Assembly (NCBI RefSeq): GCF_033472595.1
Contig: NZ_CP137642.1
Location: forward strand, 1,783,384 to 1,847,383
Source of the DNA: Methanoculleus receptaculi
GTDB lineage: Archaea > Halobacteriota > Methanomicrobia > Methanomicrobiales > Methanoculleaceae
Direction of reading: 5' to 3'
Length of the DNA: 64,000 nucleotides
The notes beneath the pieces were generated by a model. The model was not told the origin of the DNA. It made no database searches and saw only the letters and a program-made list of their open reading frames with translations. Of the stretch, positions 11,210 through 41,404 are shown one piece after another (position 1 is the first letter of the stretch; every line of letters starts with the position of its first letter). A program made the translations under genes and the position numbers.

Positions 11210-12697
11210 ATGAAATGGGCACTGCTGTCTGTCTGGGACAAGACAGGCATCGTCGATCTCGCAAAGGTGCTCATCGAGCACGATTATCGTATCCTGAGTT
11301 CCGGGGGCACCGGGGCAGCGCTGGATAAGGCGGGGGTCCCATTCACCGATGTATCCACCTATACCGGTTCTCCCGAAATGATGGACGGCAGGGTCAAGAC
11401 CCTCCATCCAAAGATTCACGGCGGGATCCTGGGACGCCGGGGTATCGACGACGCTCAGATGCAGGAACACGGCATAGAGCCTATCGACCTCGTCGTGGTG
11501 AACCTCTATCCCTTCGAGGCTATGAGCGGGAAGGGGCTCCCGATCGATAAGGTGATCGAGTACATCGATATCGGCGGCCCGGCGATGGTGCGGGCGGCGG
11601 CAAAGAACCACAGATACGTTGCCGTGGTGGTGGATCCCGCTGATTACGACAAAGTTGCAGAGGCCATCAGGAGAGGCGGATTCACAGCCGAAGAGCGCCT
11701 GAACCTCGCTGCAAAGGCGTTTGCCCGAACCGCAGCCTACGATGGCGCGATCTCAAACTACTTCACCGGCATCGGCCAGCCATTCCCGACGATTCTCACT
11801 CTCCAACACAGGGAAGGTAGAACGCTGCGTTACGGCGAAAATCCCCATCAGGCGGCAGCGGTCTACGGGGAGGGGGGTATCGCCGGCGAAGAGCCGCTCC
11901 AGGGCAGGCAGATGTCCTACAACAACTATCTGGACGTTCATGCAGCGGTCGGGCTGCTCCGGGAGTTTAATGATGGGTGTGCTGCTGTCATAGTCAAGCA
12001 CAACAACCCCTGTGGTGTGGCTATCGGGAACGGACTCCTTGAGACTTATATCGCCGCACGGGAGGTTGATCCAGTCTCAGCCTATGGTTCGATCGTCGCC
12101 GTGAACCGGGAGGTGACGGAGGATGTTGCCCGCGAGATAACAAAGACGTTCGTCGAAGTTCTGATCGCTCCATCCTACACCACTGGCGCGCTTGAGATTA
12201 TGAAGGCCAAGGAAAATATGCGGGTGCTCCGGCTTCCCGACCCTATCATCCACGATGAGATCCGGAGCATCGATGGCGGCGTCCTGGTCCAGCGCACAGA
12301 ACCATACCGGGAGGACTGGCGTGTCGTGACGGAGCGGGAACCAACGGCCCATGAGATGATGGCAATGGAACTCGCCTGGAAGGTCTGCAAACACACGAAG
12401 AGCAACGCCATCATATTCGCCGACGAGAAAGCGGTCATCGGGATCGGAGCCGGGCAGATGAACCGCGTCGAGTCAGCGGAGATCGCGGTCAGGAAGGCCC
12501 GAAAATCCCTTGCGGGATCGGCGGTGGCATCAGATGCATTCCTCCCGTTCCCCGATACGCTGGAGGTTGCAGCGGCGGCAGGGGCGACCGCGCTCGTCCA
12601 GCCTGGAGGGTCCATCCGCGACCAGGAGGTCATCGACGCGGCGAACAGGCTCAACGTCGCGATGATCTTCACCGGGGTTCGCCACTTCAGGCACTAA
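11210..12697 (+). CDS. purH: Bifunctional AICAR formyltransferase / IMP cyclohydrolase
   Basis: A 495-residue PurH. The N-terminal MGS-like IMP cyclohydrolase domain shows ILSSGGTGAALDKAG and GGRVKTLHPKIHGGIL-type residues (DGRVKTLHPKIHGG). The C-terminal formyltransferase part has LRYGENPHQ, IVKHNNPCGVA and the late GAGQMNRV. It catalyses the last two steps of IMP synthesis. Archaea often use unlinked PurP/PurO instead, so a bacterial-type PurH is notable but known in methanogens. A TATA-like GTATATC (11180-11186) is about 27 bases before the ATG, suggesting a nearly leaderless mRNA. Confidence 0.96.
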   Translation: MKWALLSVWDKTGIVDLAKVLIEHDYRILSSGGTGAALDKAGVPFTDVSTYTGSPEMMDGRVKTLHPKIHGGILGRRGIDDAQMQEHGIEPIDLVVVNLYPFEAMSGKGLPIDKVIEYIDIGGPAMVRAAAKNHRYVAVVVDPADYDKVAEAIRRGGFTAEERLNLAAKAFARTAAYDGAISNYFTGIGQPFPTILTLQHREGRTLRYGENPHQAAAVYGEGGIAGEEPLQGRQMSYNNYLDVHAAVGLLREFNDGCAAVIVKHNNPCGVAIGNGLLETYIAAREVDPVSAYGSIVAVNREVTEDVAREITKTFVEVLIAPSYTTGALEIMKAKENMRVLRLPDPIIHDEIRSIDGGVLVQRTEPYREDWRVVTEREPTAHEMMAMELAWKVCKHTKSNAIIFADEKAVIGIGAGQMNRVESAEIAVRKARKSLAGSAVASDAFLPFPDTLEVAAAAGATALVQPGGSIRDQEVIDAANRLNVAMIFTGVRHFRH

Positions 12698-12828
12698 AAA
12701 CCTTTTTTGTCGTCAGTGTGTTATTTACATCCTTTTACCGCATCCGGCTGGAGACCTGCCAGACGCTCGATGCCCCTGGATGGCTTACCCTGACCTACCT
12801 GATATGTCCAGAAAAGAGGATGTTTTTC

Positions 12829-12915
12829 ATGAGCGATGCAATTCAAAAGAGGGTTTTGCATAATGTAGAGGAGATGGGCAAGAAAATATCTGATGGAGGA
12901 GAGGCCGCGCTTTGA
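12829..12915 (+). CDS. Possible 28-residue peptide
   Basis: A short frame MSDAIQKRVLHNVEEMGKKI... with a GAGG about nine bases before its ATG; a second in-frame ATG lies three codons upstream. It reads as an amphipathic helix and is charged, but composition alone cannot prove coding. The surrounding 308 bases between purH and the Mop gene contain nothing else recognised. It may be a remnant. Confidence 0.25.
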   Translation: MSDAIQKRVLHNVEEMGKKISDGGEAAL

Positions 12916-13005
12916 GGGCCATGATATCCGGGCAGAGACTGAATCTGCTGGTTTGATGGCCTCAGTGCCCGGGATCTCCACCGACCACAGATGAACGTCC
13001 GGTTA

Positions 13006-13215
13006 TCAGTCGATGGCAACCATGACCTCAGTTGACTTTACCACCGCATATACTCTCTTGCCGACGGCAAGCCCAAGGCTCTCGACGGATTTTCTGGTAA
13101 TGACCGAGACTAGGTCGCCGCCGCCGTCCAGTTCGATGACAACCTCGGCGGTGACAACACCCTCGGTGATGGACTTTATCTTTCCTGGAATCTGGTTTCG
13201 CGCACTCAACTTCAT
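13006..13215 (-). CDS. Mop-type molybdate-binding protein (TOBE domain)
   Basis: A 69-residue protein with the molbindin pattern MKLSARNQIPGKI...VTAEVVIELDGG..LVSVITRKSVESLGL..GKRVYAVVKSTEVM. Mop proteins oligomerise and bind molybdate or tungstate for storage or regulation. The ATG at 13215 is chosen because homologues start with SARN; an in-frame ATG 12 codons upstream would add an unrelated leader. A molybdate/tungstate ABC transporter lies at the other end of this window, and formylmethanofuran dehydrogenase in methanogens needs Mo or W. Confidence 0.9.
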   Translation of the reverse strand: MKLSARNQIPGKIKSITEGVVTAEVVIELDGGGDLVSVITRKSVESLGLAVGKRVYAVVKSTEVMVAID

Positions 13216-13302
13216 GCCACTCACAGCACAGGATGGCCCATTCTCTCCCATATAGGTATCGATCGCGCTGATTTGCCTAAAAAGAGCCTGAAAACCAAAT
13301 CA

Positions 13303-34104: not shown

Positions 34105-36105
34105 TCACGCAGGGATCCGGTATATCTGGACTCCTTTCTCATCATAGATGAGTTCAAGCGCCCCGATAGGGAGAGAGACGTTGTAGCGTTCGCGCTCTGG
34201 ATCACCCACGTAGAGGAGTGTGGCGTTGTAGGCACGCGCAAGGTCGATTGCAAGGTCTGGCTGCTCGTAGATCGTCCTCACATCAGCGACCCGCTCGCTT
34301 ATCGGCCCGTAATCTCCACGCCACATGTACTCGTGAGATGGCATCCCGATGATGGTCGGGATCCCGGTGAATGTTGACATACGGGAGTAGTAGGTGTAGT
34401 CGCCGCCCTCTGCCTCGACGAGGATCTGATCGCCAGGAAGATCACAGAGGAAGGCGATCGCCGCCGCATCACCGGGATGTGAGACTGCAAGGTATGCCGC
34501 CCCGTCGAGCGTGCGGCTCCCGGAACCGAAGTCAACACCGATCGCGAATGGTGCAACCAGGAAGAGAATGATAGCCAGGGCCGGAATGGCTTTCCCGAGG
34601 CGGGGAGGTATACGTCGGTCGATCCCGAACCGCTGGCTCCACTCCCCGATTATGGCAAGGCTCGCTGTCGCCATCATGAACCAGGCGGGAAGGTAGAACT
34701 TGAAGACGGTGTTCATACGACAGTAGATCCCCCCCATCATGTCCACCAGGTAGACGAATTCCGTGCCGATGATGATCAGGAGCCCGAGGATGGCAAGCGT
34801 ATCGATGACCGAGAACCGGCGGCGGGCGATCAGGTAGACCAGCGGTATGGCGGCGATGGCCGCGGCCGGGTATCCGGCAAGCGCAGGCACCACCGCGATA
34901 AGCAGCAGGTAGGGGCGCTTTCTGATATCTGGAGCGCAGTAAGCGGTAAGGATCGCCAGGAAGAAGCCGTGAACCAGGAGGAACTCAAGAGGTGCAGAGG
35001 GTTCAGGGACGATTCCGACTCCGCCGATACCGGGGGTATTGAGGTGGAGGTAGAAGGGGAGGTATGCAAGGACGGCAAGCGGCGGCACCGCGCCGAAGAT
35101 CATCCATGACCTGCTCTCATCGCGCCCGAACTTCCCGTAGCGGCGCCAGACCATGAGACCGAAGAGAAGCGTGACGGGTGCGTAGACCAGGACGTCCCAG
35201 GAGTTGAAAGCAGGCATTGACCCGAGGGAGAGGGCGGTAAGCCCGCAGAGGACACCCCTTCCCTTCATAGAGAGATCACCCCACCGGAGATAGGCAAAAA
35301 CCAGTAGAAAGAGAAGGAACCCCTGGTTGAAGAAACTCATAACATGAGGATGAACGTCGCCCCAGAGCATGGAGAAGAGCGGATACTCGTTGATGGTGTT
35401 CTCAATCGTCCTGGTGCTGCCCCAGAGAACGTCAAACCAGGAGTCCCCGATCAGGATGTGATAGATTACGGAGGGGTTCGGGATGAAGAGCGCAAGCACC
35501 GGGAGCCACCGGTGGCGGTCGAGGATGAGGTGGCCGAGAGCGTAGAACGAGACGACAGTGAGGCCGAGCACCGTCGGGAGGGCAAGGTTGAACGCCACTG
35601 ATGACGGTGCACCGGACAGAAGCCCGAGAGCCCCGTTCATCCAGTAACCCATGTAGTAGTAGACGTCGAGCACCCCCCCGGCATACCAGGGATCAAGCGG
35701 CGGGACGATGGGCTGGCGCATGATCGATGCCAGGATGGCGTGGTCCATAAACTTCTCGCCGGAGGAGATGGCCGGGTTGATCCAGCGCACCTCGAGCATG
35801 AAGAGGAAGGGGATCAGGAAGGCGAGATCCCATTTGAACGACGAATACAATCGTTCCTTTGTGTAGAATCTGCCTGAAGCGGCATAGATTATCGCTGCAG
35901 CAAACGGGATGAGAGCAAGCAGGATCGGGAGACCAGAAAGAGCGCAATACCAGGAGAGAAGCGTGAAGAGGAGGATCGATGCCGGGTAAGCGGCGGCCGG
36001 AGCAAGGCGGCCCAGGGTGCGGTCGAGCGCCGGCCAGATGGATAACTGGAGCACCTTGATGATCGCAAGCCAGATCAGAACGGGGACGAGAAACTCACCC
36101 GCCAA
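34105..36105 (-). CDS. DUF2298 large membrane protein
   Basis: A 666-residue polytopic membrane protein of the Chlor_Arch_YYY/DUF2298 family, with about 14 hydrophobic segments. Conserved loops include RWINPAISSGEKFMDHA, LWGDVHPHVMSFFNQGF and FKFYLPAWFMM. The topology resembles C-type glycosyltransferases that use dolichyl-phosphate sugars, but function is not proved. It overlaps the upstream UPF0104 gene by 11 bases and ends the FAD-GT2-UPF0104-DUF2298 operon. Confidence 0.9.
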   Translation of the reverse strand: MAGEFLVPVLIWLAIIKVLQLSIWPALDRTLGRLAPAAAYPASILLFTLLSWYCALSGLPILLALIPFAAAIIYAASGRFYTKERLYSSFKWDLAFLIPFLFMLEVRWINPAISSGEKFMDHAILASIMRQPIVPPLDPWYAGGVLDVYYYMGYWMNGALGLLSGAPSSVAFNLALPTVLGLTVVSFYALGHLILDRHRWLPVLALFIPNPSVIYHILIGDSWFDVLWGSTRTIENTINEYPLFSMLWGDVHPHVMSFFNQGFLLFLLVFAYLRWGDLSMKGRGVLCGLTALSLGSMPAFNSWDVLVYAPVTLLFGLMVWRRYGKFGRDESRSWMIFGAVPPLAVLAYLPFYLHLNTPGIGGVGIVPEPSAPLEFLLVHGFFLAILTAYCAPDIRKRPYLLLIAVVPALAGYPAAAIAAIPLVYLIARRRFSVIDTLAILGLLIIIGTEFVYLVDMMGGIYCRMNTVFKFYLPAWFMMATASLAIIGEWSQRFGIDRRIPPRLGKAIPALAIILFLVAPFAIGVDFGSGSRTLDGAAYLAVSHPGDAAAIAFLCDLPGDQILVEAEGGDYTYYSRMSTFTGIPTIIGMPSHEYMWRGDYGPISERVADVRTIYEQPDLAIDLARAYNATLLYVGDPERERYNVSLPIGALELIYDEKGVQIYRIPA

Positions 36106-37075
36106 ACGTATCCTCCATCTCGATCTCTCTTTTGAAAGCCTTCTTCAGGAGTTCGACCGACCAGTCGCCGAAGTAGTATATCGAACCGACACCACCGACG
36201 AGCGTGACCAGGTTTTTTATCAGGTGATCTATGACCGCGATCAGAGTCGCCGTGGCCGCCGCCATCCCTGCCAGCCCGAAGGTAAGTGCGACCGCAACCT
36301 CATATGTCCCCACGCCGCCCGGCGTGAGAGGCACCGCTTTTACAAGGTTGCCGATTACGATCGCAAGGATGACCACAGAAAACGGCATCGACTCCTGAAA
36401 CATCAGGACTACCGCGTAGCAGACCAGCACGTCGACGACCCATATAAAAATCGATGAGATACTGAGCGCCGCGAGTGCACGGGAATGAAGGGAGGCCCGT
36501 CTCACCTCGTCGAGCATCTGCTGGATGGCGATGAGGATCCGGTTCTCGGAGTTCATCCTGCCCGAACTGAGGATAACAGCGAAGAAGATGCAGCCTGCAC
36601 CGAGAGGCAGCGCAATGGCGATGATGAACCAGTCGGGGACATCAAGAACTGTGAGAACAAGCAGGAGCGCAACGACGCCGAGCACCGCGACCATCATGAC
36701 ATCGAAGACCCGCTCGACGACAAGGGAGGAGAACCCCTCGGAGTAGGTGGCATCATCCTCGTGTTTGAGGATGAGCAGCCGCACAAGGTCGCCGAGACGC
36801 GCCGGGACGATGAGGTTCGCCGTCTGGGATACAAGGATGCAGGCTGTCGAGAACCAGACACCCTTTTCGACACCGAGTCCATGGAGGATGAACCTGTATC
36901 GGAAACCACGGAGTATCCAGGCAGCGACGCAGATCGCGACAGCCGCAACCAGGAACGGCAGAATCGCGTGCTCGAGCGTCAGCATGAGGTCGTCCCACAC
37001 GCGGTATAGCATATACCCGATGATCCCTGCTGCGATCAGGGTGGGTATGACGATAGCGCTAACTTTTTTCCACAT
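36095..37075 (-). CDS. UPF0104 / LPG-synthase-like flippase domain protein
   Basis: A 326-residue membrane protein of the lysylphosphatidylglycerol synthase TM (UPF0104) family with eight or so helices. Signatures are RGFRYRFIL, ANLIVPARLGDLVR, VVERVFDVMM and PLTPGGVGTYEVA. It may flip lipid-linked sugars. The ATG at 37075 overlaps the end of the GT2 gene by 17 bases; an upstream frame extension overlaps GT2 coding and is not used. Confidence 0.88.
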   Translation of the reverse strand: MWKKVSAIVIPTLIAAGIIGYMLYRVWDDLMLTLEHAILPFLVAAVAICVAAWILRGFRYRFILHGLGVEKGVWFSTACILVSQTANLIVPARLGDLVRLLILKHEDDATYSEGFSSLVVERVFDVMMVAVLGVVALLLVLTVLDVPDWFIIAIALPLGAGCIFFAVILSSGRMNSENRILIAIQQMLDEVRRASLHSRALAALSISSIFIWVVDVLVCYAVVLMFQESMPFSVVILAIVIGNLVKAVPLTPGGVGTYEVAVALTFGLAGMAAATATLIAVIDHLIKNLVTLVGGVGSIYYFGDWSVELLKKAFKREIEMEDTFGG

Positions 37076-37778
37076 GAAGCCGCCACCAGAGATGCACAAT
37101 TGCCGATCCCATCTTGAATACATCTTTCGCGCGAACGGTTGTCCCATCGCCCTGCCGCCACCGCACAGGGATCTCCCGTATCCGGTAACCCTTCCTCTGA
37201 GCCCGCACCAGCACCTCCGTGTCCCAGAACCAGTGGTCTGCCGTGACGGAGGGGAGCAGGGAGGGCAGACGGTCACGCCGGAACGCCTTGAATCCGCACT
37301 GGTGATCATGCAGCCTGCTCCGGAGGATCAGGCGCACCAGCATGTTGTAGCCCCTGCTTGCGATCTCACGGCCGCCGCTCCGGATGATGGTGCTCTCGGG
37401 AAGGAGACGGGAGCCTGTTGCGATATCGCATCCCTCCCGAATGGAGCCTATCAGTTCAGCGAGGTGCTGCATATCGGTTGCGAGATCTACATCGTAGTAA
37501 CAGACGATCGATCCCCTCGCCGCGGCAAACGCACGGTTGAGCGCGCGGCCCCGTCCGAGTCTCTCATCGGCATGGAGCAGCCGAACCCGGGGGTCCCGCT
37601 CCTCATACTCCCTGACAAAATCCGCGCTCCCATCGGTGCTCCCGTCCTCGGCGACTATCAGTTCGAACCTGCCTGGCGCGATCTCTTCGAGCGTCTCAAG
37701 CGACCGCGGTATGGCGATTCGGAGCGCCGCAAGATCGTTGTAGACCGGCAGGACAGCGCTCACCTCGATCTCAGCCAT
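37059..37778 (-). CDS. Family 2 glycosyltransferase (dolichyl-phosphate sugar type)
   Basis: A 239-residue GT-A enzyme. VLPVYND starts the nucleotide-sugar site, IVAEDGSTDGS follows, and the DxD motif is YYDVDLATD. HQCGFKAFRRD and WFWDTEVL are typical of dolichyl-phosphate glucose/mannose synthases. It would load a lipid carrier for N-glycosylation. The ATG at 37778 overlaps the FAD gene stop by eight bases. Confidence 0.9.
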   Translation of the reverse strand: MAEIEVSAVLPVYNDLAALRIAIPRSLETLEEIAPGRFELIVAEDGSTDGSADFVREYEERDPRVRLLHADERLGRGRALNRAFAAARGSIVCYYDVDLATDMQHLAELIGSIREGCDIATGSRLLPESTIIRSGGREIASRGYNMLVRLILRSRLHDHQCGFKAFRRDRLPSLLPSVTADHWFWDTEVLVRAQRKGYRIREIPVRWRQGDGTTVRAKDVFKMGSAIVHLWWRLHVEKS

Positions 37779-39003
37779 TCGCAAACCTCTCAAGAACCCT
37801 TTTTGCCACCTCCTGTCCAGCGATGACCGAACCATTCATGCTCCGTTCGGGGTAGTTCGGCGGGCTGAACATCCCGGCCATGAAGAGACCGTGCTCCTCG
37901 TAGTCCGGCAGTCGTTTCCGAAGCCCGGTCGTGTAAACAGGTCCTGCGTATGGGTCCACGGCCAGGCGATGCCAGTGCACCTCCCCTTCGTCGACGGAGA
38001 AACGCCTGCAGAAATCGACGAGCATCTTCTTCTCAAACCCTTCCGGGAGCCGGCCCGTGAAGTAAGATGCAAGGTAAACGATCTGCTCGCCGTACCACTC
38101 AAGGGGGGCGAAGTTGGTGTGCGAGACAACCGCACCGTATGGGGCCTTATCCTTCATGTTCAGCCAGTATATCCCGTCGGTAACGTCACGGTCGAGCGCC
38201 AGGGTCATGCAGGCGGCGCCCTGGTAGGGAACGGGGGCGATATCCAGACCGGTAAGTGTTGCGGTCACCTGGGGAGGGAGGGTCGATACAACGGCGTCGT
38301 AAGGTTCACCGTTTACAAGCCAGGCTTCGCCATCCCGCCGGATCTCATCAACAGGCGCACCGGGCATTATCGATGCACCCTGTCGCGACGCCGTCTCCTC
38401 AAGCCGCGCAATGAAGTGCTGGAATCCTCCCTTCAGGTAGCCAAGCCGCTCCCCTCCGACACCCCGGTCAGACCTGATGGCGATGCGAGAGATCAGCCAG
38501 GCCGCAGATACCTCCCACGCCCGGTCTCCAAACTTGCTCTTCAGGAGCGGTTCAAAGAACGAGGCATAGACCCCCGGCCCGAGGTTGTCAAGGATAAAGT
38601 CCCTCGCGGTGACCTCGTCGAGCGCTGCCACGTCAAACCGGCGGGAGCGCAGCGTCAGCAGTCCCAGGCGGACCTTCTCGATGAGCGTGAGGTGGGGGTA
38701 GCGCAGGATCTCGGTCGGGGTGGTGAGGGGGTGGACTACCCCGTCGACGAAGTAACCGGTGGTCCCCTTGAGCCATACCAGCCGGTCGATAACCCCGAGA
38801 TTCTTGAAGAGTGCAAGCAGCGCAGAATCCCCCGCAAAACAGTGGTGATAATACTCCTCGATCCAGTAGTTGCCGATCCGGTAGGATCCAAGGCATCCTC
38901 CCGGAACAGGCCTTCTCTCGAAGAGATCTACCTCATGTTCCCCGACGAGTTCAAGTGTCGAGACCAGACCGGATAAACCTCCCCCCACAACGCAGATCTT
39001 CAT
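37771..39003 (-). CDS. FAD-dependent amine-oxidase-like oxidoreductase
   Basis: A 410-residue flavoprotein. The N-terminal VVGGGLSGLVSTLEL is the FAD-binding fingerprint, followed by LFERRPVPGGCLGSY. The middle ALDEVTARDFILDNLGPGVY and C-terminal GLFMAGMFSPPNYPERSMNGSVIAGQE match protoporphyrinogen-oxidase/UDP-galactopyranose-mutase relatives. It heads the glycan operon, so it may act on an isoprenoid or a sugar nucleotide. The start lies 124 bases from the divergent CetZ-like gene. Confidence 0.88.
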   Translation of the reverse strand: MKICVVGGGLSGLVSTLELVGEHEVDLFERRPVPGGCLGSYRIGNYWIEEYYHHCFAGDSALLALFKNLGVIDRLVWLKGTTGYFVDGVVHPLTTPTEILRYPHLTLIEKVRLGLLTLRSRRFDVAALDEVTARDFILDNLGPGVYASFFEPLLKSKFGDRAWEVSAAWLISRIAIRSDRGVGGERLGYLKGGFQHFIARLEETASRQGASIMPGAPVDEIRRDGEAWLVNGEPYDAVVSTLPPQVTATLTGLDIAPVPYQGAACMTLALDRDVTDGIYWLNMKDKAPYGAVVSHTNFAPLEWYGEQIVYLASYFTGRLPEGFEKKMLVDFCRRFSVDEGEVHWHRLAVDPYAGPVYTTGLRKRLPDYEEHGLFMAGMFSPPNYPERSMNGSVIAGQEVAKRVLERFANG

Positions 39004-39126
39004 TGATCACCCCTGTATATGAAAGATATAAGAGTAGTTTTTGATAAAACTTCTAACTCTGTATGCATGGTCTTTATACATAAGCATGGATATATTTAAT
39101 CAGGCAATATGAGGGTGTGAAGTTAG

Positions 39127-40299
39127 ATGAGGGTCTTCTTCATAGGATTCGGCCAGGCAGGGGGCAAGATCGTCGATATGTTCGTCGAGCAGGACAAACG
39201 ATCTCAGACCCAGAGTTTCAGGGGCCTCGCGGTAAACACAGCACGAACCGACCTGATGGGGCTTAAGCATATAGAACTCAAGGACCGGCTGCTTATCGGC
39301 CAGACAGTGGTGAAAGGTCACGGTGTCGGCACCGATAACGTGACCGGCGCGCGGGTGACTGCCGATGAGATCGATTCCATTATCAATGCCATCGATTCAC
39401 GCGGCACCCACGATATCGACGCCTTCGTCATTGTAGCCGGTCTTGGCGGCGGAACAGGTTCGGGTGGTTCGCCAGTCCTGGCCCGCCACTTAAAGCGCAT
39501 ATACCGGGAACCGGTCTATGCGATCGGCATCCTGCCCGCCCCAGAAGAAGGCCGACTATACTCATATAACGCTGCCCGTTCCCTCAGCACCCTGGTGAAC
39601 GAAGTGGACAATACATTCATCTTCGATAACAGCGCCTGGAAGAATGAGGGGGAGAGTGTAAAGGACGCCTATTCAAGACTGAATGACGAGATTGTACGGC
39701 GGTTCGGCGTGCTCTTCCGGGCAGGTGAGGTCGGCAAAGCAGGTGTCGGTGAGATGGTTGTGGATTCAAGCGAGATCATCAATACCCTCCGGGGCGGCGG
39801 CATCAGTTCTGTCGGTTACGCCATCAGCGAGAAAGTCAATCCGCGCACAAAGCAGCAGAAGAAGAGTCTCTTCTCCAGCCTGACGCGCAGCAATAAGGAT
39901 AAGACCGAGCAGGTGCTGACAGGTGAGGACAAGTCAGCAAAGATCATCGCTCTTGTCAGGCGGGCCATGCTCGGGCGCCTCACCCTGCCCTGCGACTACT
40001 CGACGGCTGAACGGGCTCTTGTCCTTCTCGCCGGCCCGCCAGAGGAAATGGACCGCAAGGGCGTGGAGAAGTCAAAGAGCTGGGTTGAGGAGAACATCGC
40101 CGGCGTTGAGGTGCGTGGCGGGGATTACCCTGTGCAGAGCGACTACATCGCGGCAGTGGTGGTCCTCGCGACGATCGGCAACGCTCCCCGGATTACAGAA
40201 CTCCTTGAGACCGCAAAGTCCACAAAGGAAGACGTCCTTAAGTCAAAGGAGAAGCGTACGACCATGTTCGACGACGGAATTGAACCTTTGTTTGAGTGA
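39127..40299 (+). CDS. CetZ/FtsZ-like tubulin-superfamily GTPase
   Basis: A 390-residue tubulin-superfamily protein. The N-terminal FIGFGQAGGKIVDMF and the tubulin/FtsZ signature GLGGGTGSGG (about residues 105-114) form the GTP site. It is nearer the CetZ group than FtsZ1/FtsZ2 by general pattern. CetZ proteins affect cell shape in haloarchaea. A TATA-like ATATATTTAAT (39089-39099) lies about 30 bases before the start. The next gene encodes a membrane-anchored coiled-coil protein, 13 bases downstream. Confidence 0.9.
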   Translation: MRVFFIGFGQAGGKIVDMFVEQDKRSQTQSFRGLAVNTARTDLMGLKHIELKDRLLIGQTVVKGHGVGTDNVTGARVTADEIDSIINAIDSRGTHDIDAFVIVAGLGGGTGSGGSPVLARHLKRIYREPVYAIGILPAPEEGRLYSYNAARSLSTLVNEVDNTFIFDNSAWKNEGESVKDAYSRLNDEIVRRFGVLFRAGEVGKAGVGEMVVDSSEIINTLRGGGISSVGYAISEKVNPRTKQQKKSLFSSLTRSNKDKTEQVLTGEDKSAKIIALVRRAMLGRLTLPCDYSTAERALVLLAGPPEEMDRKGVEKSKSWVEENIAGVEVRGGDYPVQSDYIAAVVVLATIGNAPRITELLETAKSTKEDVLKSKEKRTTMFDDGIEPLFE

Positions 40300-40312
40300 G
40301 GGAAAGGCTATT

Positions 40313-41404
40313 ATGGAGAAGGCAAGCATCGTAAGGTGGTTTATCCTTCTGCTGGCACTCCTCTGTGCCGTGCAGGGGGCATCGGCGTTTAACATTAAAA
40401 CCGAGACCATCAACCCTGCCACCGGCCCACTCGAGCCGGGGCAGCAGGTGACCGCACGCTACGTGCTCACCTATGATATGGTCACTACGGGTGACCTGAG
40501 CGATGAGACGTTCGAGTTGAGCACGGGGCTGCAGAATCCAGTCTGGGATATCATCGTCTATCGCGATGGGATTGCCGTCTACACCACCAAAAAAACCGGT
40601 TACTATCCCGTTCTGACGGAGTTTGAGATATCGTACGGTGAGGGCGACACCGAACTGGATATACAGTTGCGTGGCACCGTCCCCTCGAGCACGACCGGGC
40701 AGGTTCTGATAATCAAGATCGAGCACCTGCGCGGCAGTGATGTGAAAGACTCCCATTCGGTGAGCCGCGACGTCGTGAGCGCTGCCGATATCAAGGGTGC
40801 GCTTGACGCCCAGCAGCAGCGCCTCAAGGATCTGAAGGCCGATATGGATGCAAAGGCGGCAGAGGGCGTGGACATATCTGAGGTTCAGGCAAAGTATAAT
40901 GCTGCAAGCAGTGCGCTCACCAGCGCCGCATCGGCAGGGCCAGCACAGGCAAAATCTTACATCGACACCGCGAAGTCGAATATCGATGAAGCGATCAAAC
41001 TCCTGGACAAAGCATGGGCGGAGAAGGCGGTTGCCGATACCGGTGCGGCAATCGAGTCGCTTGACGGGATGATAAACTACTTTGTCGAGAACAGATCCAT
41101 GGGGAGCGATCCGCAGGTTGTTGCCATCATGACCAAGCGCGAGAGTGCCGTCCAGTTCTACACCCAGGCACAGGACTACCTGAACGCCGGCAACTACGCA
41201 ATGGCGCGCTCAAAGGCTACGGACGGCATGAACAAGGCAAACGAGGCACTGGCAGACGCAGCCGCGCTCCGGGAGAAGATCGGTGAGGGGTTCAGCCTCA
41301 GCGGCAACCTCCTCCTCTACATCGGGATCGGGGTTGCTGTAGTTCTTATCGTTGTGGGTGTTGTGCTGCTCCGGAAGAGGAAGCGCTGGGACGAACTTGG
41401 ATGA
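40313..41404 (+). CDS. Membrane-anchored coiled-coil protein paired with CetZ-like GTPase
   Basis: A 363-residue protein. Residues 1-25 form a signal peptide ending SAFN. A beta-rich domain (about 30-145) follows, then a long alanine/lysine-rich helical region (about 155-310) with heptad patterns. A single membrane helix (LLLYIGIGVAVVLIVVGVVLL) sits before the basic tail RKRKRWDELG. The C-terminus would be cytoplasmic. GAGGGAAAGG precedes the ATG. Tight spacing to the CetZ-like gene suggests a shared function, such as anchoring filaments or sensing the envelope. No family name is known to me. Confidence 0.82.
   Translation: MEKASIVRWFILLLALLCAVQGASAFNIKTETINPATGPLEPGQQVTARYVLTYDMVTTGDLSDETFELSTGLQNPVWDIIVYRDGIAVYTTKKTGYYPVLTEFEISYGEGDTELDIQLRGTVPSSTTGQVLIIKIEHLRGSDVKDSHSVSRDVVSAADIKGALDAQQQRLKDLKADMDAKAAEGVDISEVQAKYNAASSALTSAASAGPAQAKSYIDTAKSNIDEAIKLLDKAWAEKAVADTGAAIESLDGMINYFVENRSMGSDPQVVAIMTKRESAVQFYTQAQDYLNAGNYAMARSKATDGMNKANEALADAAALREKIGEGFSLSGNLLLYIGIGVAVVLIVVGVVLLRKRKRWDELG

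Follow-up and report, generated by a model that had tools for sequence, protein, structure and literature searches.

The window analysed here, a stretch of 64,000 nucleotides from Methanoculleus receptaculi, contains two genes that follow each other on the forward strand, ORF1 (39127-40299, 390 aa) and ORF2 (40313-41404, 363 aa, with an ATG start at 40313). They are separated by exactly 13 bases, as an earlier note on this DNA had stated, and the same note's recognition of ORF1 as a CetZ-like GTPase is borne out by profile searches. ORF1 matches the Pfam models CetZ_C (PF21011) with 243.5 bits, against a curated cut-off of 21.6, and Tubulin (PF00091) with 109.5 bits, against a cut-off of 33. 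It stays below the FtsZ equivalog model TIGR00065 (80.6 bits, cut-off 295.2) and is therefore not FtsZ, and its closest PDB relative is CetZ1 of Haloferax volcanii (4b46, 414 bits over 376 residues), ahead of CetZ2 (262 bits). Judged by these matches, ORF1 is a genuine CetZ, namely a Halobacteria-like, CetZ1-related tubulin-family GTPase. Behind a variable linker it ends in the peptide GIEPLFE-COOH (40276-40296, forward strand), and endings in PLF, PLI, PLV or SLF (e.g., IEPLFE or LESLF) are found phylum-wide in nearly every CetZ of this group; since the peptide persists where the partner described below is absent, it is not partner specific. Upstream, a region of 123 bp (39004-39126) is shared with a divergent glycan operon, so that the divergent glycosylation operon of the earlier note is indeed present, although the region is one base shorter than the 124 given there. 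The first gene of this operon (37771-39003, minus strand) encodes an FAD amine-oxidase-type protein (PF01593, Amino_oxidase), and the remainder (34105-37835, minus strand) encodes a GT2 glycosyltransferase, an LPG_synthase_TM-type membrane protein and a DUF2298 membrane protein, which are conserved neighbours. Between 32757 and 39003, again on the minus strand, the glycan operon is accompanied by the genes for ribosomal protein L7Ae and NDK, in an order beside cetZ that is kept across Methanomicrobiales.

The source genome has four tubulin-family genes. One of these, at a different site (minus strand, G000:C1 about 11487-13262, which is L338 988-2763), encodes a second, deep-branching CetZ of 591-615 aa; if read at its shortest (591 aa), it has a C-terminal extension of about 200 low-complexity residues that ends in GITWIL, and comparable long CetZs are found across Methanomicrobiales. 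This agrees with PMC9856176, by which Methanomicrobiales have one CetZ that is Halobacteria-like and a second that is not. In the terms of the same paper, ORF1 belongs to the Halobacteria-like group known for Methanomicrobiales and Archaeoglobales and is probably not a haloarchaeal CetZ1 as defined there; divergent glycan genes lie upstream of it where CetZ1 has nolA. An additional Halobacteria-like CetZ, with no partner adjoining, is seen in genus g8 (L097 7534-8694 and L099 7529-8692).

ORF2 encodes a type-I single-pass membrane protein. Its hydropathy profile shows two hydrophobic segments, at residues 10-28 and 333-351, the latter with a peak of 3.02. The first belongs to a signal peptide (residues 1-25, 40313-40387) that ends in QGASA and whose position is kept in 39 of 39 aligned partners, and the second to a C-terminal transmembrane helix (residues 333-356, 41309-41380). 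An AlphaFold2 model computed with 39 relatives (mean pLDDT 89) places between them two extracytoplasmic domains, a β-sandwich built of strands within residues 26-154 (40388-40774, pLDDT mostly 75-98) and a domain of five helices at residues 157-325 (40781-41287, pLDDT 91-98), followed by the membrane helix and a disordered tail. All these features lie on the forward strand, as does the cytoplasmic C-terminal motif WDELG-COOH (41387-41401), which was recognised by its conservation in the alignment. Hydropathy and model thus agree with the earlier note on the signal peptide, the outer beta domain, the helical region, the C-terminal helix and the basic tail. They depart from it on the coiled coil, which is probably not the right word: the modelled helical part consists of five successive confident helices, for which helical bundle is the better term. 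ORF2 has no match among Pfam, NCBIfam and PDB families, and a Foldseek search of the model against the PDB and viral folds returned only generic β-sandwich matches with low TM-scores. DUF4398 and other scattered weak Pfam and NCBIfam matches of family members were discarded as composition-driven helical matches.

The first finding of this study is that the two genes are kept together far beyond the genus of the window, so that the outcome by which the earlier note would have counted its proposal as refuted, a pair confined to this genus, did not occur. We surveyed 120 Methanomicrobiales genomes, with all 30 genera present in both the partner and the CetZ_C searches, and found a partner homologue in 116 and a CetZ_C protein in 118. 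Pairs were called by script from coordinates: in 113 of the 116 genomes with data, covering 30 genera and six families, the partner lies directly downstream of the Halobacteria-like CetZ on the same strand, the remaining genomes being incomplete or split at contig ends. Spacing is nearly constant (between the CetZ_C domain end and the partner match, the median is 104 bp). Across the order the partners share 24-74% identity with ORF2 (about 30%), as against 69-93% for CetZ with ORF1, and the Methanomicrobiales CetZs form a clade of their own in the CetZ tree.

The pair is also found well beyond the order. Searched with a partner profile, 217 of 393 phylum genomes gave a match. Among the 37 inspected closely, the partner adjoins the strong CetZ in part of f9, in f31, f26, f24, f19, f18, f16, f11 and f10, and in the haloarchaeal families f13, f17 and f29; f9 and f31 are taken to be Archaeoglobales-like, and several lineages with the pair are represented by MAGs. 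Within f9, the genera g43, g50, g58 and g71 and one g62 genome have the partner at a site unlinked to cetZ. In g71 (L197, L199 and L201), the neighbour of this unlinked partner is another, related membrane protein (352-381 aa) that ends in RRRDKW or RKKDKW. For haloarchaea we examined 80 named loci retrieved with H. volcanii CetZ1 as the query, a set of records that does not include H. volcanii itself. In 46 of them, including all 12 Haloferax species returned, the partner overlaps and follows cetZ1 and is in turn followed by cofC; the overlap in Haloferax is 32 bp, and the CetZs so linked are CetZ1 orthologues. This count includes one interrupted locus (Halogranum amylolyticum) and one with an assembly gap (Haloquadratum). 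The former (L255 5151-6000) is broken by a stop or frameshift, which may reflect gene decay or an error in sequencing, and an apparent fusion of the two genes in Haloquadratum sp. J07HQX50 (L289) was rejected because what joins them is a run of N. In Halorubrum, Halolamina, Halonotius, Halohasta, Haloparvum and Natronorubrum the partner is absent beside cetZ1, mostly with cofC directly after it, and no copy was found elsewhere in the ten partner-less genomes tested. The haloarchaeal partner profile has strong matches in f13, f17, f23, f27, f29 and f33, and profile-profile comparison aligns the Methanomicrobiales and haloarchaeal partners end to end, tail on tail (99.3% probability, E 2.5e-20). 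In H. volcanii, the partner is expected between cetZ1 and cofC, a gene that we take to be HVO_2203. There, cetZ1 is HVO_2204 (PMC9263693).

The trees of the two genes match. A CetZ tree and a partner tree of 51 pairs each, both quick trees in which the identities of f9 and others are inferred, show the same four groups (Methanomicrobiales, f9/f31, haloarchaea and the other lineages), and both have the same central split between Methanomicrobiales with f9/f31 on one side and haloarchaea with the remaining lineages on the other. Matching trees are what co-inheritance predicts, but species descent alone would give similar trees too. From these sequence comparisons, the pair appears to be a two-gene module inherited together over most of the phylum, and we regard a partnership of the two genes as very probable.

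The second finding is the tail of the partner, which is about 10 residues long, basic, and has the general ending aromatic-D-x-L. WDELG is the most conserved five-residue window of the partner alignment (98%, against a column mean of 47%), and its codons change synonymously, which shows that the constraint acts on the protein. Of 61 genomes, 56 have exactly one WDELG followed by a stop, in every case at the end of the cetZ-linked partner; of the other five, four are incomplete assemblies and the fifth has a partner ending in YDELF, and a control with the reversed pattern gave a single match in all 61 genomes. Other lineages have variants of the same ending. The tails of f9 read WDELR, WDELK or FDELK and are retained even where partner and cetZ are unlinked, those of f16, f18, f19 and f11 read WDRLG, WDKLGR, WERL and WGRL, respectively, and in f10, f24 and f26 the motif is weak or lost. 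Most haloarchaea have YDKLG, which is found before a stop once per genome and in the partner gene only; partner-less haloarchaeal genomes have no true YDKLG end, the lone match, in Halonotius, reading YDKFGW. Because the motif sits at the extreme C terminus, right behind stop-transfer basic residues, where degrons and sorting signals occur, it might be a signal for trafficking, stability or membrane insertion instead of an element that binds the cytoskeleton. We consider this very improbable, as a generic signal would be expected on other membrane proteins, whereas WDELG is unique in each genome and is missing from paralogues with the same ectodomain. Such paralogues are found in family f2 (L328-L333), where unlinked, secreted versions of the partner ectodomain, about 400-440 aa long and with Ser/Thr-rich linkers, have no WDELG tail.

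That specificity also bears on another account of the pairing, in which the two genes share only regulation and neighbourhood, and an envelope or glycosylation-related partner lies by chance in a stable gene block. The Methanomicrobiales block is indeed syntenic as a whole, comprising the divergent glycan operon, L7Ae, NDK and EF-1alpha, and at 37 of 39 partner-bearing loci the pair has divergent glycan or membrane genes next to it, with the amine-oxidase-type gene as a neighbour in 37. However, the pair is intact in families that have no other neighbour from the window, it is retained in the part of family f6 where downstream synteny is lost, and in haloarchaea it stands in a cofC/cofG setting quite unlike that of Methanomicrobiales. 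Together with a conserved cytoplasmic tail that is specific to the cetZ-linked gene, this makes mere neighbourhood an improbable explanation.

A natural chimera offers a view of what the tail may do. In a genome of the same genus as the window (G100:C56, L334 890-3289), a protein kinase domain (PF00069, E 2.8e-43) comes after a paralogous ectodomain and transmembrane helix, and the start of the same reading frame holds a degenerate remnant of a CetZ C terminus; it looks like a new Ser/Thr receptor kinase built from a copied cetZ-partner locus. With a kinase domain in the place of the tail, the chimera supports a type-I topology in which the C terminus of the partner is inside, and it suggests that the tail is an exchangeable cytoplasmic output. 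The receptor-like design of this relative, with a cytoplasmic Ser/Thr kinase joined to the ectodomain and membrane helix, favours the main rival to a mechanical role, namely that the partner is a surface sensor or receptor which regulates CetZ, or is read by CetZ-associated regulators, and whose tail serves to bind a regulator or adaptor, for instance a MinD-family ATPase. Control of CetZ1 localisation by MinD proteins in H. volcanii (PMC11621097) points in the same direction. Structure prediction may be read in this way as well, in that AlphaFold2 did not dock the partner on CetZ: in a read-through chain of the two proteins, the tail was undocked and disordered (pLDDT about 35, pTM 0.42). CetZ itself, however, was poorly modelled there on a shallow alignment, so that we draw little from this run. 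On the other side, the tail has only about 10 residues and no catalytic domain, and no co-conserved adaptor gene was found in the operon at the 39 partner-bearing loci, so that we hold a receptor or adaptor-based role to be unlikely, if the most serious competitor. Comparison of haloarchaeal CetZ1 columns that change upon loss of the partner gave only four conservative substitutions and no clear surface change; this indicates that CetZ can function without the partner, and it leaves no binding site visible. The earlier note's proposal of an envelope-linked partner of CetZ thus holds as far as genetic partnership goes (pairing, trees and tail), whereas the contact between the two proteins, undocked in the read-through chain, is something that we infer.

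We prefer to read the partner as a type-I membrane protein that uses its tail to couple CetZ filaments to the envelope, either directly or via an adaptor, and we give this reading a probability of roughly 55%. CetZ would form a tubulin-like filament, and the product of the downstream gene would be its dedicated envelope partner. Once the signal peptide is cleaved, the β-sandwich and helical domains would lie outside, under or in the S-layer, the single helix would span the membrane, and the basic tail ending in WDELG would be in the cytoplasm as a short linear motif recognised by CetZ filaments or by a filament-bound adaptor. In this way the tail would tie the filament to the membrane and the ectodomain would tie it to the surface layer, through which CetZ might act on shape, polarity or surface assembly. 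In favour of this reading, CetZ1 has no membrane segment, yet CetZ proteins are described as envelope-associated, and among the proteins of H. volcanii vesicles CetZ1 was the most abundant (PMC10927574).

The proposed coupling has parallels and differences with known systems. Like a tether, ORF2 is a membrane protein with a cytoplasmic segment that is genetically tied to a polymer gene, and its proposed job, connecting a tubulin-family polymer to the membrane, is that of the FtsZ tethers, i.e., archaeal SepF and bacterial ZipA, FtsA and EzrA. ZipA and EzrA have large cytoplasmic domains and SepF has an amphipathic helix, whereas the folded part of the partner is outside and a short tail alone is inside. 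No sequence or domain relation was found either: SepF, FtsA, ZipA and EzrA profiles gave no Pfam or NCBIfam match for ORF2 and none in Pfam for 39 + 18 aligned partners. In layout, the partner resembles integrin- or syndecan-like linkers, with an extracellular domain, one transmembrane helix and a very short conserved tail proposed to meet the cytoskeleton, a functional analogy for which no homology is claimed. Carried further along this analogy, the family may possibly be an ancient archaeal transmembrane linker, working with CetZ1 in Haloferax, with outer domains that would contact the S-layer and an invariant aromatic-D-x-L tail that would grip CetZ filaments, a broader idea that we advance tentatively. 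CetZ2 and the CetZ of Thermococcales, which PMC9856176 links to type IV pilus regulons, are likewise cases of cetZ beside surface-structure genes; in contrast, the linked gene here encodes neither a pilin nor PilB/C but a single-pass type-I protein, and the linkage holds over most of the phylum.

Neither the tail motif nor the linkage with haloarchaeal cetZ1 is in the earlier note, whose author knew of no described partner of this form, and the literature that we searched for the partner, HVO_2203, WDELG and CetZ anchors likewise contained no description. Nor do we know of any mechanism by which CetZ filaments are attached to the envelope. The text of PMC9856176, which covered cetZ1 neighbourhoods (nolA, cof and pur genes) and whose non-haloarchaeal synteny survey concerned cetZ outside the Halobacteria branch, mentions no gene like the partner, although the gene may stand unnamed among the uncharacterised arCOGs of its supplement.

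These findings have several consequences for archaeal cell biology. First, the shape shared by the CetZ and partner trees bears on the proposed horizontal transfer of the Halobacteria-like CetZ group. Second, Haloferax is the main laboratory model for CetZ, which governs rod shape and motility there; with one defined gene immediately after cetZ1 in Haloferax species, and five residues in it that can be mutated, the attachment of CetZ to the envelope becomes open to genetic tests. Third, the partner stands out as a strong candidate for what joins this cytoskeleton to the envelope, and if it is indeed such a linker, archaea would have a connection from the cell surface to the cytoskeleton.
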